Origin: Candidatus Peribacteria bacterium
GTDB lineage: Bacteria > Patescibacteriota > Gracilibacteria > UBA1369 > LOWO2-01-FULL-3
Assembly: GCA_943356465.1 (NCBI GenBank)
Contig: CALREX010000004.1
Span: 1-64,000, forward strand
Length of the DNA stretch: 64,000 nt
Direction of reading: 5' to 3'
Within the stretch, counting starts at the first letter, position 1. Every line of letters starts with the position of its first letter. The notes under the pieces were generated by a model. That model had not been told where the DNA came from. It did not search any database and saw only the letters and a program-made list of their open reading frames with translations. The position numbers and the translations under genes were made by a program. This document shows positions 10,306 through 16,703 of the stretch, in pieces.

Positions 10306-12687
10306 TCATCGCAAATAAAATGGCAATATATAAGGTTGTTTCAATCCAGGAATCTGTTTAATAATACTCAGATCATCAATATTGATTTTGCCATAATACA
10401 GGTCCTTCAAATTACCACCTTTTTTAAGGAATGATAAAATCATTTTATTCCCATTAAAATAAACTAATTCACGAGTAAATCCTCCAAGTGCCGATGTATC
10501 GGCAAGACCACGTTTGGTTTTTAGAGCAACACGATGAGCTCTGGCAGTATCAAAACCAAGATCAAGGAGTGCATTTACAGTTTTAACAAAACTTCCCTTT
10601 AGGGCCTGATCAACGCCTACAATAGAAGATGCCGGCCAATATGTTTTATAAATTGGCTGACTCTGGACTTGATTTTGATTGTAAACAGCAAGCCCTTCTT
10701 GAGTAAATAAATAGTCAGCTAATCCTCTTTGAAAAATTTTATAGGGTTGTATTTTTCCATTTACTGCAGTCAAAACATGGGTTTCAATTTCATGTGCTAT
10801 CGTGCCTTTAAGCCTCTGTGCAGAAAAAGTTGCATTTTCTCTAATCAATATATTTTTTTCTTTTCCTGTAATTACATCGGAAACTAAATCTTTTCGAATA
10901 ACAACACTCCATTCATGTAAGCCATATTTATTTAGAACTTCTTCAAATTTTATTTTTGCCTGACGTGAGTCCATCATGGAACCTTCCTTCGGAAAAATTT
11001 TTGGCATATCACTAATCATTTTGTTAGCTTCCTCTAGAAGTATAGAATCGGGAGCTCCATAAAGTGCTATAGATTTTTCAGTAAATTGTTCTGTTCCTAT
11101 GGCTTTCAGTAAATTTATTTTAAGCCTTATTTCATTAGCTTTTCTTTTCCAAAGTATACCTATTGGAGAATCTGAGAATACCATACTATCTATGCAGTAA
11201 AGGAATTTATCAGGATCAAAATCAAGTGGCTTATAAATAAATTGAGGATTATATTTCAAATTTTCAAGTATCCGTGCTTCTTCAGATTCTAAATTTAATG
11301 GTCTTAAATAATGTAGCAAATGTATTTGCTGGTCGATATCCATTAGTTGAGACTCTGTTGCAAGCTCATCAGGATGTTTTAATGATTTCTCTATAAAAAC
11401 AGGTGTTGTCGGAATTTCCGGGGTTGTTAGTATAGTTTTTTTATTTGGATCAATTAATATATTTTTCAAATCACGCGTGCCAATACGTACAGGCACATTT
11501 TTTTCAAGATCTGCAATATCTACAAGCGTAATTATGCGATATGTATCAAAATTAAGTTTACACTTAGAATTTTTATCAATACCAAGAGCTTGAGCCAAAC
11601 GTCTATCCACTATCGTTTTTTCTAAAGAAAGATCAACACATACATTTACACGTTGATTGCCATTTTCACCAATAATTTCGATCACATCAATTAAGCCGAT
11701 AACAGGAGTAACTTTCTGAGAAACGGGCCTCTCAACACGCTGACCAAAAATATCCAATGCGATCCTTACTCCTTTTTCAGGAGTTTGTACTTTTATCCCT
11801 TCGATACGTTCGAGCCGTTTACGCAGAGGAGCCATATTCGCAATCTGCACAGCAAGACCAGCACGCGCATTTATTTCCAAAAGAACCGGACCTGTAGTTT
11901 TGTCCAAACTGATATCAACAGCAGCAAATCCAAGATTGCTTATTTGTTGAACTCTGGAGGCGATTAGTAAAATTTCTTCCCAATAAGGTATTTTTAATCC
12001 GGAAATATCTCCATATCCAGGCACACTTGAAATCTGTTTACCATATTGTGTTATATATGTTATTTCACCTTTAGCCATGTCAATACCTGCGGCAATCCCG
12101 CCCATATGAATATTCGCTTTACCATCGGAGTCCCGAGTTGGTAAGCGCAACATCGCCATAACAGGTATTAGATTGTGAACAATAACACGAATATCGGGTA
12201 ATCCACGATAGGCAATTGAAGCAAAAGGTTCGGGAGCGATAAGAACTTGTTCAAAAAGTGCAATATCAGGCATGTCATTAATTGAATAACGACCATCTAA
12301 TATGTTTTCTACATGATCCTTTAGCTCTTTCAAAAAAATAATTTCTCCATTGGATTTAACAAAATCTTTCCCTTTACGTTCCTTGATAACTATAATTCCC
12401 TCTCCTCCATAGCCGGAATTTGGTTTAACAACAAATGCTGATGGGATAGTATCCCACTTAAAAGTAGTCAATTCTTTTTTTCTGGAAATAGTGCCGTATA
12501 GCTTTGCTGTAGGGATATTGCGAGCAGCAAGGAAATGCTTAGTTTTTAATTTGCTGTCGGCCATTAAAACAGCCTTTTTGGGATTATAAGCCTTAATATA
12601 AAGCAGATTACGTGCATTGATGCCTAGAATACCTGGATTATGAAAAAACCACATGATATGTTGTTTATTACTATTCTTCTTGAGCAT
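10306..12687 (-). CDS. ATP-grasp ligase + degenerate retropepsin-like + DUF1704/MATCAP-like peptidase fusion
   Basis: The 793-residue protein has three parts. Residues about 30-300 are an ATP-grasp ligase of the alpha-L-glutamate ligase-like type: KPNSGYGGEG at 88-97 for ATP and LLEINARAGL at 269-278 for metal. Residues about 325-415 resemble the RimB/retropepsin-like domain usually encoded beside such ligases, but the DTG-type catalytic triplet is absent (VDLSLEKTIVD). Residues about 440-793 are DUF1704, the family of flavohemoglobin expression-modulating QEGLA proteins and the eukaryotic tubulin tyrosine carboxypeptidase MATCAP. Zinc motif H632-E-I-E-T-H637 and QEGLA at 663-667 are intact. 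The start overlaps the 3' end of the PKD-7TM gene by 17 nt. The substrate is unknown. Confidence 0.82.
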   Translation of the reverse strand: MLKKNSNKQHIMWFFHNPGILGINARNLLYIKAYNPKKAVLMADSKLKTKHFLAARNIPTAKLYGTISRKKELTTFKWDTIPSAFVVKPNSGYGGEGIIVIKERKGKDFVKSNGEIIFLKELKDHVENILDGRYSINDMPDIALFEQVLIAPEPFASIAYRGLPDIRVIVHNLIPVMAMLRLPTRDSDGKANIHMGGIAAGIDMAKGEITYITQYGKQISSVPGYGDISGLKIPYWEEILLIASRVQQISNLGFAAVDISLDKTTGPVLLEINARAGLAVQIANMAPLRKRLERIEGIKVQTPEKGVRIALDIFGQRVERPVSQKVTPVIGLIDVIEIIGENGNQRVNVCVDLSLEKTIVDRRLAQALGIDKNSKCKLNFDTYRIITLVDIADLEKNVPVRIGTRDLKNILIDPNKKTILTTPEIPTTPVFIEKSLKHPDELATESQLMDIDQQIHLLHYLRPLNLESEEARILENLKYNPQFIYKPLDFDPDKFLYCIDSMVFSDSPIGILWKRKANEIRLKINLLKAIGTEQFTEKSIALYGAPDSILLEEANKMISDMPKIFPKEGSMMDSRQAKIKFEEVLNKYGLHEWSVVIRKDLVSDVITGKEKNILIRENATFSAQRLKGTIAHEIETHVLTAVNGKIQPYKIFQRGLADYLFTQEGLAVYNQNQVQSQPIYKTYWPASSIVGVDQALKGSFVKTVNALLDLGFDTARAHRVALKTKRGLADTSALGGFTRELVYFNGNKMILSFLKKGGNLKDLYYGKINIDDLSIIKQIPGLKQPYILPFYLR

Positions 12688-14179
12688 GCTTCATAACTTC
12701 ACGGAAACGGAATATTTCAGTTAATCGCAACCCTGTCCAACGACTCATTAAAACATTAATTAAAAGCAAAACAAGGATAAGCTCAGGATATGCCAACATC
12801 AGGGTTTGCATATATTGCCATTCAACCAATTCGTAACATATCAAAGAAACAGTCATTGTCTCAACCATAAGAATTGGGGCAACCTTATATCCATTATTAC
12901 TGAGAGCATTAACAAATTTTTCCGCCATTGTTGTCATTACAAGAATAGGAAAGACTGCAATCGAAGCAATTTGGTTGACATCCAGCCACGCACCAAAAGC
13001 AAGTAGGCCCAAAATCACAAGCGTAGAAAAACATAAAATGATCGCCATACGTGGGTAATGTAGCATACGAAAACGATCAAGAATTTTCCTAAAGACGGAA
13101 CCTGTAATAATAATTACTACTATAATGGCCAAGCCAGCCTGAAGTCCAAGCGCAAGAAAAGCAAGCGTAATTATAGAAGTGGAATACAAACCAAGAGTGC
13201 CAAATCCAATAATCTGTTTAATAAATGTAATTATGGTTACGATGAGAGGCAACATTAACAGCAACACAATTGTATTAGAGGGGATGCCTTTAGTTATCGC
13301 ATAATTTACCAAATAAGAAATTGCATTCCATAGTCCGACATGACTTGATTCTAGGTTAATAATGCTATACTGAGCTTTACCTTTTATCAAAGACTTTATA
13401 AAATCTTCCACAGAATCAGCGGCGATCAAATTTCGCAATTGATATTGCCTGACAAGTAATATTTGTTTAGGACTAATTATGTTGAAATTACTCTGCATAA
13501 TCCTGCCAAGAGTACCCAGATTTTCATCACTAATCACAATAAGAGTTTTATCATTTAAAATTTCTTTTATTTCAGGGCGCTCTTGCACTAATCGAGTAAG
13601 AGAATTAATGCCGCTACCGCGAGTAGTCCACATAATTATGCTTTCTGCACTACCAAGTATGTTTTTTTCTTCAACTATTTTTTTAGATAGTGATTCCTCG
13701 GAAACGAATGCTGTTGTACTGTCATAACTATCAATGAGTTTTATATAAATTCCCTTATCAATAGCCTCGGTCGTCAACTCTTGAATAGTTTCTTTTTGAT
13801 CGGAAACATCAGTCAATAAAACCATCAATTTTTGGTAAACAAAAACATCACGATCGACAACTACCTCTTCATCTTTTTGTTTCATAGTTAAAACTACATG
13901 ATAAAGTCCTGTATTCTCAAAACTATGAATAACTTCCTGACCTTTTGAAGATCTCGATTTATCTCCAAAATCCCACGAATATACAACGGGCTCATCAGGA
14001 TATACGAGTTGTGGAGATGACACGTTGAAAATTATATTTTTCCCGACTTCAACGGTGTCATTAGAGGCAATCACGGCCGACAACTTAAGGGTGGAAAAAT
14101 CAGATCCTTTTGCCGAGTATGCAATCAAAACACATAGAACAAGAGCAATTGACAACAATTTAAAGATTTTCTTAATCAT
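12671..14179 (-). CDS. PKD-domain protein with C-terminal 7TM module (7TM_transglut-like)
   Basis: The 502-residue protein has an N-terminal signal or anchor (residues about 5-25), a PKD-type beta-sandwich (about 55-115; YSWDFGDKS and FENTGLYHVVLTM), then an extracytoplasmic alpha/beta domain (about 116-275). From about 295 it has seven hydrophobic helices ending in RFREVMKHAQEE. Established comparative-genomics work links such 7TM modules to ATP-grasp glutamate-ligase-like proteins and retropepsin-like domains, and the ligase fusion is the next gene, overlapping by 17 nt. I infer a membrane partner that senses or presents the ligase substrate. The usual inactive transglutaminase domain is not recognisable and PKD may take its place. 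Confidence 0.75.
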   Translation of the reverse strand: MIKKIFKLLSIALVLCVLIAYSAKGSDFSTLKLSAVIASNDTVEVGKNIIFNVSSPQLVYPDEPVVYSWDFGDKSRSSKGQEVIHSFENTGLYHVVLTMKQKDEEVVVDRDVFVYQKLMVLLTDVSDQKETIQELTTEAIDKGIYIKLIDSYDSTTAFVSEESLSKKIVEEKNILGSAESIIMWTTRGSGINSLTRLVQERPEIKEILNDKTLIVISDENLGTLGRIMQSNFNIISPKQILLVRQYQLRNLIAADSVEDFIKSLIKGKAQYSIINLESSHVGLWNAISYLVNYAITKGIPSNTIVLLLMLPLIVTIITFIKQIIGFGTLGLYSTSIITLAFLALGLQAGLAIIVVIIITGSVFRKILDRFRMLHYPRMAIILCFSTLVILGLLAFGAWLDVNQIASIAVFPILVMTTMAEKFVNALSNNGYKVAPILMVETMTVSLICYELVEWQYMQTLMLAYPELILVLLLINVLMSRWTGLRLTEIFRFREVMKHAQEE

Positions 14180-14236: not shown

Positions 14237-15322
14237 TTATCTTTGAATATGCACCGGAGTCCCTACGTCAGCAAAATCAAATAAGAACTGAGATTCTTCA
14301 GGAAGCATTCTTACGCATCCATGACTTACCGGAATTCCAATATGTTCTCTCGCTTCAGTCCAGAAAGAATCACCCCTGCCACGTAGACTTGGAAGAGCAT
14401 GAAGACCATAACCTCTTTCATCAAACATCATAAAATTTGGCATTATGTAATGAGGTTCCTTTCCTCCAACTCTAGTTTCTTGTTTCAGAATGATATGAAA
14501 ATCTCCTCTAGGAGTAGGGGTAGAAGACGCACCACTGCTAATAGTAAATTCACGCACTACATAATCACCCAGCTTTACAATCATTTTTTGATTATCGAGA
14601 GAGATATTTATGCTTTTTTCTCCATCAACAGGAATATCCATTACAGAACCACTTTGATTTGCATAAAACATTCGTAGTCTTACATCTCCAGGAAGAGATC
14701 CAGTATCTCCGACCATCAAATCAAATGACACTTTAGCTTCATCCATCCACTTAATACCTTCTACGACAGGCGTCAAATTTTCTTTAAAAACATCAGCCTT
14801 TTTTGAAGATCTTGAAAAGAATGTAAACGAAGCTGTGTATCCTGGATCAACTCTTAATTGATCCATTCCAATTCTATTATTTTTTTCCCAATTTGTATCG
14901 ACCACTCCATCAAGTTCTTTTGCATAAAATTGACTTGCTGAGTCTCTTGGCTTATCCGTTCCAAGCGATACGTGAGGTCCTTTACAAGTGCTTTTACCTG
15001 AGAACCATGGCATATTTCCTGCATTTTTTACGAACACAGTAACTCTGAAAACTTCATTTGTATCTATCTTGAGTTTTCTTCGAGTAGATATTATTTGAGC
15101 ATTAAAATCCTGATTTGTAGGAGTTTCATATGCACAATTTTCAATAGGTTTTGCAGGAACAGGTGCCAAAACTTTTGCACGCTCTCCAATAACTTTACCA
15201 GTATCAGGTGCAGGTAAAACAGAGGCTTTTATCATAGTAGTATCCGCACTCGCAAGCCCGGAAAGTATGATAGATATAGATATGGAAGTAACAATTCCAA
15301 ATAAAAATTTGTTCCTTTTCAT
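14237..15322 (-). CDS. L,D-transpeptidase (YkuD) with N-terminal secretory region
   Basis: The 361-residue protein starts with a signal peptide (MKRNKFLFGIV..., cleavage near SGLASA). Residues about 60-220 form a beta-rich domain, and residues about 240-361 form the YkuD catalytic domain. The active-site motif HIGIPVS-H-G-C-V-R places the nucleophile at C336 with S333 and H334. These enzymes form 3-3 cross-links in peptidoglycan or attach proteins to it. The PRGDFHI strand is also typical. It lies 57 nt upstream of the PKD-7TM gene on the same strand, so the envelope genes may form one transcription unit. Confidence 0.92.
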   Translation of the reverse strand: MKRNKFLFGIVTSISISIILSGLASADTTMIKASVLPAPDTGKVIGERAKVLAPVPAKPIENCAYETPTNQDFNAQIISTRRKLKIDTNEVFRVTVFVKNAGNMPWFSGKSTCKGPHVSLGTDKPRDSASQFYAKELDGVVDTNWEKNNRIGMDQLRVDPGYTASFTFFSRSSKKADVFKENLTPVVEGIKWMDEAKVSFDLMVGDTGSLPGDVRLRMFYANQSGSVMDIPVDGEKSINISLDNQKMIVKLGDYVVREFTISSGASSTPTPRGDFHIILKQETRVGGKEPHYIMPNFMMFDERGYGLHALPSLRGRGDSFWTEAREHIGIPVSHGCVRMLPEESQFLFDFADVGTPVHIQR

Positions 15323-15412
15323 ATTGTTTTTATTTTAGTTTTTATTTTTAACTAAACATATTATACAACAAAAAAGGAATAAGTGCAACAGGTTGATTAG
15401 CGGAAAATAATG

Positions 15413-16246
15413 CTATTTATCACAACTTATTCTACTGGAATCATCAAGTTCTCTAGGCAAAATTAAAGTTCTGATATCGCTTGAAATTGCAGAGGTACAA
15501 AGTTTTGAAGTATATTTATATTCTGCATTAAAAATAGGCTTATCTTGTTCAGTAAAAACAGATAACTCGTCACATTCTTTATAAGCATGACATTCCTCAT
15601 TCAGAGTCAGATCATAATAATCAACCAATCTGTCAGCTAACTCCACTGCATTTTTAAGCGCGACAGTTAGATTTCTTGCATGTGCTTCATTTGCAATACG
15701 TTTATTAAAAGCCAATTGATCTTTCTTTGTCAGTTTAAATCCGGTTTTATTTGAATATCCATCTACATTGTCAGGCTCAACTCCATCGCAGCCTTTTGAA
15801 ACAGCTAGATCCAACCGTGACAACATAACATCTAAAACATTTTTGGTACGAATATCCAGCCATTTTTCACCTTTCCAGCCATCCATGGATTTTCCTAGAG
15901 ATGATGATTTAAATTTACTGAAATCACTACGCCAGTTTTCGCTTGAGCCGGCGGAAAAATAACAAAGCACCTTCTTGCCTGAAGATTTTAATTCGGAAAT
16001 AGTTTCAGATGAAGTATCGAACAAATCTATATCATACACATCAACATCGTAATCCTGATTTATAGTACCTGTTAATTGCCATTGCCATGTAGTATTCACG
16101 GTTGGGCGATACCAGTCACCGGCTGAAAGAGGTGAAATATTCGGGTCAAACACGTCTTCCTTTGCACCAGATGATTTCGCAAAAGCAGGTGCGATCGTTA
16201 AGCAAATCAGAGTCACTAAAGCCGATATTTTTATCAAATTCCGCAT
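15413..16246 (-). CDS. Secreted GH114-like (endo-alpha-1,4-polygalactosaminidase family) protein
   Basis: The product is a TIM-barrel protein of the GH114/DUF297 family. The start at 16246 (MRNLIKISALV) gives a clean signal peptide ending in AFA, followed by the mature N-terminus KSSGAKEDVFDP; a longer frame to 16327 would overlap nrdR and add a non-signal leader. Family marks are WQWQLTG, VYDIDLFD, KVLCYFSAGSSENWR, GCDGVEPDNVDG and LALKN-like AVALKNAVEL. About 278 residues is normal for one domain. The likely role is hydrolysis of amino-sugar exopolysaccharide at the cell surface. It starts 10 nt after nrdR. Confidence 0.82.
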   Translation of the reverse strand: MRNLIKISALVTLICLTIAPAFAKSSGAKEDVFDPNISPLSAGDWYRPTVNTTWQWQLTGTINQDYDVDVYDIDLFDTSSETISELKSSGKKVLCYFSAGSSENWRSDFSKFKSSSLGKSMDGWKGEKWLDIRTKNVLDVMLSRLDLAVSKGCDGVEPDNVDGYSNKTGFKLTKKDQLAFNKRIANEAHARNLTVALKNAVELADRLVDYYDLTLNEECHAYKECDELSVFTEQDKPIFNAEYKYTSKLCTSAISSDIRTLILPRELDDSSRISCDK

Positions 16247-16256
16247 AAAACAAATA

Positions 16257-16703
16257 TTATTTTGAAAGCTTCTGAAGCTCTTTTTTGAAAGTATCAATAT
16301 CCTTAAACTGCCTATATACAGAGGCAAACCTTATATATGCGACTTCATCCAATTCTTTTAGTGCATTCATAATCCCTTCTCCTATAATACCGCTATCGAC
16401 TTCTTTCCCTAGATTTGCCCATTCTTCTTCGAGTCTATTTAACATTTGGCTGACTTGTTCTTCGGTGATTTTTCTCTTTTCACAAGATTTCCAAATACCT
16501 TTTTCAAGCTTCTCTCTATCGTAAGATTCACGTGATCCATCTTTTTTCACAACTATAAATTTATTCACTTCAACTCTTTCAAAAGTCGTAAATCTATGAT
16601 GGCACTTTTCGCATTCTCGTCTTCTTCGAACAGCTTTGTGGCCGTCAGTTTCACGAGAATCAAGTACACACGTATCTCCTTTTTGGCATTTTGGACAGTT
16701 CAT
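16257..16703 (-). CDS. nrdR: Transcriptional repressor NrdR
   Basis: The 148-residue protein has the zinc ribbon MNCPKC...CEKCHHRF, followed by an ATP-cone domain (KFIVVKKDGSRESYDREKLEKG). NrdR senses ATP/dATP and represses ribonucleotide reductase genes. Length and motifs fit the family closely. It sits between a dGTP triphosphohydrolase gene upstream (11 nt gap) and the GH114-like gene downstream. No ribonucleotide reductase gene is in this window, so the targets are elsewhere. Confidence 0.96.
   Translation of the reverse strand: MNCPKCQKGDTCVLDSRETDGHKAVRRRRECEKCHHRFTTFERVEVNKFIVVKKDGSRESYDREKLEKGIWKSCEKRKITEEQVSQMLNRLEEEWANLGKEVDSGIIGEGIMNALKELDEVAYIRFASVYRQFKDIDTFKKELQKLSK

Follow-up and report, generated by a model that had tools for sequence, protein, structure and literature searches.

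A predicted ATP-grasp glutamate ligase fused to a MATCAP-type metallopeptidase and paired with a 7TM membrane protein in Candidatus Peribacteria

Introduction

In Pseudomonas aeruginosa, the RloABC operon encodes an ATP-grasp ligase (RloC), a 7TM protein (RloB) and a peptidase (RloA), and RloB and RloC oppose the peptidase genetically (PMC12239564). Here we describe a related locus from a Candidatus Peribacteria bacterium, in a 64,000-nucleotide stretch of contig CALREX010000004.1 (assembly GCA_943356465.1; the whole stretch is hereafter the window), where an ATP-grasp ligase and a MATCAP-type metallopeptidase share one polypeptide and a 7TM protein is encoded immediately upstream. RloA is a separate, secreted and active retropepsin with a signal peptide, whereas the retropepsin of the window is fused to the ligase, predicted to be cytosolic and apparently dead, leaving MATCAP as the intact peptidase. 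RloB carries an inactive transglutaminase; the window's partner has a PKD domain instead.

RimK and RimB likewise combine an ATP-grasp glutamate ligase with a glutamate-removing retropepsin, and a ligase-protease hybrid of the two, RimBK, has been published (PMC11957791). The original prediction for this locus, which took ligase, retropepsin-like and 7TM parts to be encoded separately in known systems, overlooked that hybrid, and each domain discussed below is already known. In RimBK, however, the retropepsin is N-terminal and active, with neither a 7TM partner nor a metallopeptidase, whereas here a degenerate remnant follows the ligase in the chain. The TMCP/MATCAP tubulin carboxypeptidases (KIAA0895L and KIAA0895) belong to the same peptidase family as the window's enzyme, share its HExxxH and EGLA motifs, act on C-terminal Tyr or Glu and take both C-terminal and polymeric glutamate off tubulin (PMC10499314), but they are eukaryotic, stand-alone enzymes with no ligase in the chain. 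Bacterial QEGLA proteins (TIGR02421) also belong to this family and can adjoin an ATP-grasp gene. On a Shinella plasmid (NZ_OZ000535.1, locus L143), an N-formylglutamate amidohydrolase, a QEGLA/MATCAP protein and a glutathione synthetase form one apparent operon, which differs from the window in its ATP-grasp type, its separate genes, its amidohydrolase neighbour and the lack of a 7TM gene.

A search of one literature library found no paper on the ligase-MATCAP fusion, on eraser replacement or on the partner's tail, although an earlier mention of ATP-grasp together with DUF1704 may exist. The original prediction had named a common and already characterised fusion as grounds against it; the fusion did prove common (about 40 of 60 near relatives), and no paper characterising it was found.

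Results

The fusion gene and its domains lie on the reverse strand of the window as follows.

10306..12687 (-), fusion gene (ATP-grasp ligase, degenerate retropepsin, MATCAP), 793 residues as called
11779..12639 (-), ATP-grasp ligase domain, residues 17-303, placed by profile matches and conserved residues
11413..11760 (-), degenerate RimB/RloA-type retropepsin domain, residues ~310-425, flap segment deleted
11626..11634 (-), D352-L353-S354 at the position of the catalytic D-T-G triad, from alignment with unfused relatives
10309..11340 (-), MATCAP/DUF1704 metallopeptidase domain, residues 450-793 (PF08014, 2.8e-50)
10777..10794 (-), HEIETH, predicted gluzincin metal site, residues 632-637
10687..10701 (-), QEGLA motif, residues 663-667

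This three-domain architecture is well supported by profile comparison. The ligase matches PF14397 (ATPgrasp_ST) over residues 26-296 at 1.2e-62, far above the family cut-off, and scores 263.5 bits (E 2e-78) against TIGR02291, whose strict equivalog cut-off is 314.2. Its ATP and metal residues (K88, E146, R181, D258, E271 and N273) are nearly invariant in ~187 aligned ligases. The domain is most likely an alpha-L-glutamate-ligase-like enzyme, with glutamate addition as its predicted activity. At the other end, PF08014 (MATCAP, the same family as DUF1704) covers residues 477-778 with 171.8 bits against a curated cut-off of 27, TIGR02421 (QEGLA) matches at 5e-56, under its strict equivalog cut-off, and the MATCAP family profile reaches the human KIAA0895L structure 7z5g at 3.1e-43. 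The HEIETH and QEGLA motifs, which the original prediction had reported as intact, are both in place, and HExxxH and EGLA are retained in all fused systems examined, consistent with a metallocarboxypeptidase that would presumably work from the C-terminus.

The middle domain, foreseen as retropepsin-like without DTG, is recognised through its unfused relatives. Profile searches recovered ATPgrasp_ST, DUF1704 and 7TM_transglut as proposed, but the fused middle region alone gave no Pfam match. The retropepsin of unfused relatives matches PF05618 in 14/14 tested members, conserves DTG and an RPxI segment, and as a profile matches, at 1e-8, the entries 9g59/9g58, whose deposited name is putative ATP-dependent zinc protease domain protein. 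Compared with this intact domain by hhalign, the profile of the fused middle-domain family reaches a probability of 99.8%, with DTG altered and some 40 residues missing. By this alignment, the window's remnant is a RimB-like (PF05618) homologue that lacks the catalytic D-T/S-G; it probably now serves as a spacer or as a regulator of the ligase.

Replacement of the retropepsin was followed across about 180 related systems from one phylum, 175 of them with a readable 7TM tail. We call systems coupled when MATCAP is fused or adjacent to the ligase (n = 85) and uncoupled otherwise (n = 88). Of the coupled systems, 75/85 no longer have the D[TS]G triad (48/55 fused, 27/30 adjacent), vs 3/88 uncoupled ones, and these three all belong to family f58, whose genomes in question hold MATCAP elsewhere. 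HExxxH is present in 81/81 systems that have lost the retropepsin and carry MATCAP in the locus. Every assessable ligase therefore keeps at least one intact peptidase. A rule of this kind would predict what is seen in P. aeruginosa, where loss of all three RloA proteases harms the cell and a deletion of rloB or rloC relieves the defect (PMC12239564). That MATCAP replaced the retropepsin as the eraser is well supported by these comparisons. Judging from the unfused relatives, the ligase first became joined to an active RimB-like retropepsin that did the trimming, and this domain decayed once MATCAP had come in.

The second gene of the pair encodes a protein with the PKD and 7TM regions that had been expected of it.

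12671..14179 (-), partner gene, 502 residues: signal peptide, PKD domain, extracytoplasmic domain, 7TM_transglut region
14102..14179 (-), hydrophobic N-terminal segment, likely signal peptide, residues 1-26, from hydropathy
13868..14074 (-), PKD domain, residues 36-104 (profile match, 6e-10)
12722..13288 (-), seven-helix membrane region (7TM_transglut, 3e-28), residues ~298-486, C-terminus predicted cytosolic
12674..12679 (-), GAA GAA codons for the terminal Glu-Glu, proposed acceptor, from tail comparison

Family topology would place the last ~16 residues of the partner in the cytosol, and its C-terminal end reads ...RFREVMKHAQEE. Against NF052267 (RloB) the protein scores 73.6 bits, the cut-off being 900.

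Terminal Glu-Glu follows MATCAP coupling closely. The 7TM tail ends in Glu-Glu in 78/85 coupled systems (52/55 fused, 26/30 adjacent), compared with 8/88 uncoupled ones (1/17 where MATCAP is near but non-adjacent, 7/71 without it). Only 3/746 background genes (0.4%) end this way, which argues against a general C-terminal acidity. The 7TM proteins of unfused relatives end at nearly the same place, minus the glutamates, and within family f58 the genomes in which MATCAP has moved away also lack the tail (L158-L160 and L165). Two Rlo-type 7TM tails that were checked, from Legionella and Aeromonas, have no Glu-Glu. A Shine-Dalgarno origin of the two codons was considered and ruled out: Glu-Glu is kept where the downstream start lies 78-461 nucleotides away, and the codons are mostly GAA, so they do not represent a ribosome-binding site.

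The fusion is common and conserved in the class of the window, as judged from homologous loci. Of 60 near relatives, 49 have a match, which in ~40 cases runs through both ligase and MATCAP in a single frame. When 380 genomes were sampled evenly across the phylum, 35 (own genome included), nearly all of the window's class, had the full fusion, 110 had 7TM_transglut and 86 had MATCAP. Ligases outside that class mostly carry an intact RimB/RloA-type (DTG) retropepsin at their C-terminal end, and MATCAP is then missing, far away or encoded by the next gene. In eight unfused systems (L043, L044, L046-L050 and L063) MATCAP is the next gene on the same strand, giving the order 7TM, ligase, MATCAP, as in the fusion. 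In the ligase tree, the fused proteins group in a single supported clade (57 members), a second fusion (L059 and L060) sits within the unfused part, and a third, separate lineage carries an adjacent MATCAP; by this tree, the fusion had a second origin within the phylum. Apparent fusions in family f58 turned out to be adjacent genes once the loci were read. No relatives were found on viral contigs, plasmid records gave no fusion match over 80% of the query, and a scan of genome contigs returned mainly one unfused relative, from Candidatus Shapirobacteria (L041).

Several other arrangements of these domains were seen along the way. Two ligase-retropepsin proteins have a long C-terminal extension (L082:4411-7173, 921 residues; L081:3218-5779, 854 residues). 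In L082 the extension consists of another ATP-grasp domain (PF02655), so that the same ligase is fused differently there. At L064:8015-8959, an additional ATP-grasp gene of YheCD-like type overlaps a ligase-retropepsin gene at its end. In family f38 (L052, L106, L110, L111, L113, L116, L118 and L119) MATCAP lies downstream on the opposite strand, and its distance from the intact ligase-retropepsin gene varies strikingly little, at ~3.6-4.4 kb. Genomes G007, G147, G309, G330 and G372, with several others, carry second, divergent MATCAP-like genes for ~350-480 residues, unlinked to the ligase.

The 7TM gene lies immediately upstream of the ligase in nearly every system with sufficient flanking sequence, and no other neighbour is conserved beside the module across the relatives' loci, so the module consists of two genes, or of three when unfused. 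Upstream of the 7TM gene, the window encodes an L,D-transpeptidase (YkuD) and a GH114 glycosidase (14237-16327, reverse strand), which are not conserved there in relatives.

Both reading frames, 10306-12687 (-) and 12671-14179 (-), were confirmed and are conserved at the protein level. A chance or frameshift fusion is ruled out by the single open frame kept throughout the class. The 17-nucleotide overlap originally reported between the two genes depends on the most upstream ATG and is probably a start-codon artefact, because same-genus homologues (L002 and L003) begin at the equivalent of Met12 (MWFFHNPG). A start at this position (12654), which we consider likely, gives 782 residues and leaves a 16-nucleotide gap to the partner gene. 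By hydropathy, the fusion protein has no membrane-length hydrophobic segment.

Discussion

We lean slightly towards reading the locus as a two-gene membrane module of the rlo/rim kind with an exchanged eraser, in which the ligase would add glutamates to the partner's C-terminus and MATCAP would trim them. The 7TM protein would sense or bind something outside through its PKD domain, while its short basic tail, ending in Glu-Glu, would sit in the cytosol. There the ATP-grasp domain would extend the C-terminus with amino acids, glutamate being the likeliest, and MATCAP, further along in the chain, would remove them; the 7TM protein would signal or be active according to the state of its tail. The first proposal, of amino-acid tagging that is reversible and takes place at the membrane, gains support and is refined to a candidate tail and a candidate tag. 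Since RloA and RimB degrade polyglutamate and the TMCP/MATCAP enzymes remove C-terminal glutamate, a common product for both erasers is plausible, and polyglutamate fits better than tyrosine. Glutamate is favoured as the tag mainly because two unrelated peptidases sharing activity on polyglutamate appear to replace each other. Taken further, the data would fit a membrane receptor tail reversibly polyglutamylated by one bifunctional enzyme, with a RloC-like ligase having exchanged its retropepsin for a carboxypeptidase of the tubulin-detyrosinase type, by fusion in at least two cases and as an adjacent gene in one more, alongside convergent gain of a Glu-Glu acceptor; this fuller account we hold only tentatively.

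Several observations weigh against these readings. Seven fused proteins still have D-T/S-G, and the second fusion reads DTS. Family f169, L191 and L055 combine Glu-Glu tails with an intact retropepsin but have no MATCAP linked to the locus, and seven coupled systems lack such tails (L059, L061, L080, L149, L043, L044 and L063). The correlations among coupling, Glu-Glu and retropepsin decay come down to 3-7 independent contrasts on the ligase tree, for which a sign test is not significant; nearly all informative contrasts agree in direction, and almost none is opposite. The sequences show the architecture, the homologies, the conserved catalytic residues, the replacement of the retropepsin and the tail correlation, whereas glutamate as the added residue, the tail as the substrate, the carboxypeptidase direction and the signalling role are what we infer. 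Finally, a chain that holds both writer and eraser could run in a futile cycle if it were not regulated, a task that would probably fall to the 7TM protein.

The same correlation between tail and MATCAP would be expected if Glu-Glu were never modified and instead docked in the MATCAP active site as a product mimic, tethering the enzyme at the membrane or keeping it off, with another protein or free polyglutamate as the real substrate. Fixed, short Glu-Glu ends suit a binding motif as well as a primer, and RimK makes free poly-alpha-glutamate besides protein tags (PMC11957791). Family f169 (L184-L188 and L198), whose tails end in DDEEE or similar, breaks a simple rule of Glu-Glu with MATCAP; there the retropepsin is kept and MATCAP is unlinked, so docking to MATCAP cannot cover all cases, and we regard this explanation as rather unlikely. 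Together with L191, these tails suggest that Glu-Glu may be an acceptor for either eraser and not a feature of MATCAP.

It is also conceivable, if improbable, that the target is an unlinked cytosolic protein and that the 7TM protein only regulates the enzyme, since the ligase comes from the same superfamily as RimK, which with RimB acts on the ribosomal protein S6 (RpsF; PMC11957791). The 7TM gene is, however, the only conserved neighbour. The organism's own S6 (L148, around 1484-2093, contig C4 of the genome) has a long Glu/Lys-rich C-terminal extension but ends in DITL, not in glutamates, and was set aside as an obvious target. We find it very improbable that ligase and MATCAP process a small metabolite or an envelope precursor, such as a sugar- or peptide-linked amide that the peptidase would recycle. 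The best match of the ligase, PF14397, is indeed named "sugar-transfer associated ATP-grasp", and the unfused MATCAP of Shinella lies between an N-formylglutamate amidohydrolase and a glutathione-synthetase-type ATP-grasp gene; yet no sugar-transfer genes are conserved nearby, and the closest tested relatives (Rlo, Rim and TMCP) act on protein tails or polyglutamate.

When Rlo was described in 2025 its substrates had yet to be found, and very few targets are known for polyglutamylation in bacteria. The comparison of ~180 systems from these small-genome bacteria brings out an exchange of erasers and points to the last two residues of the partner as a testable target. If the proposed reading is true, it would give the MATCAP family, so far known from tubulin, a bacterial setting, and the module would be a prokaryotic parallel of the tubulin tail code.

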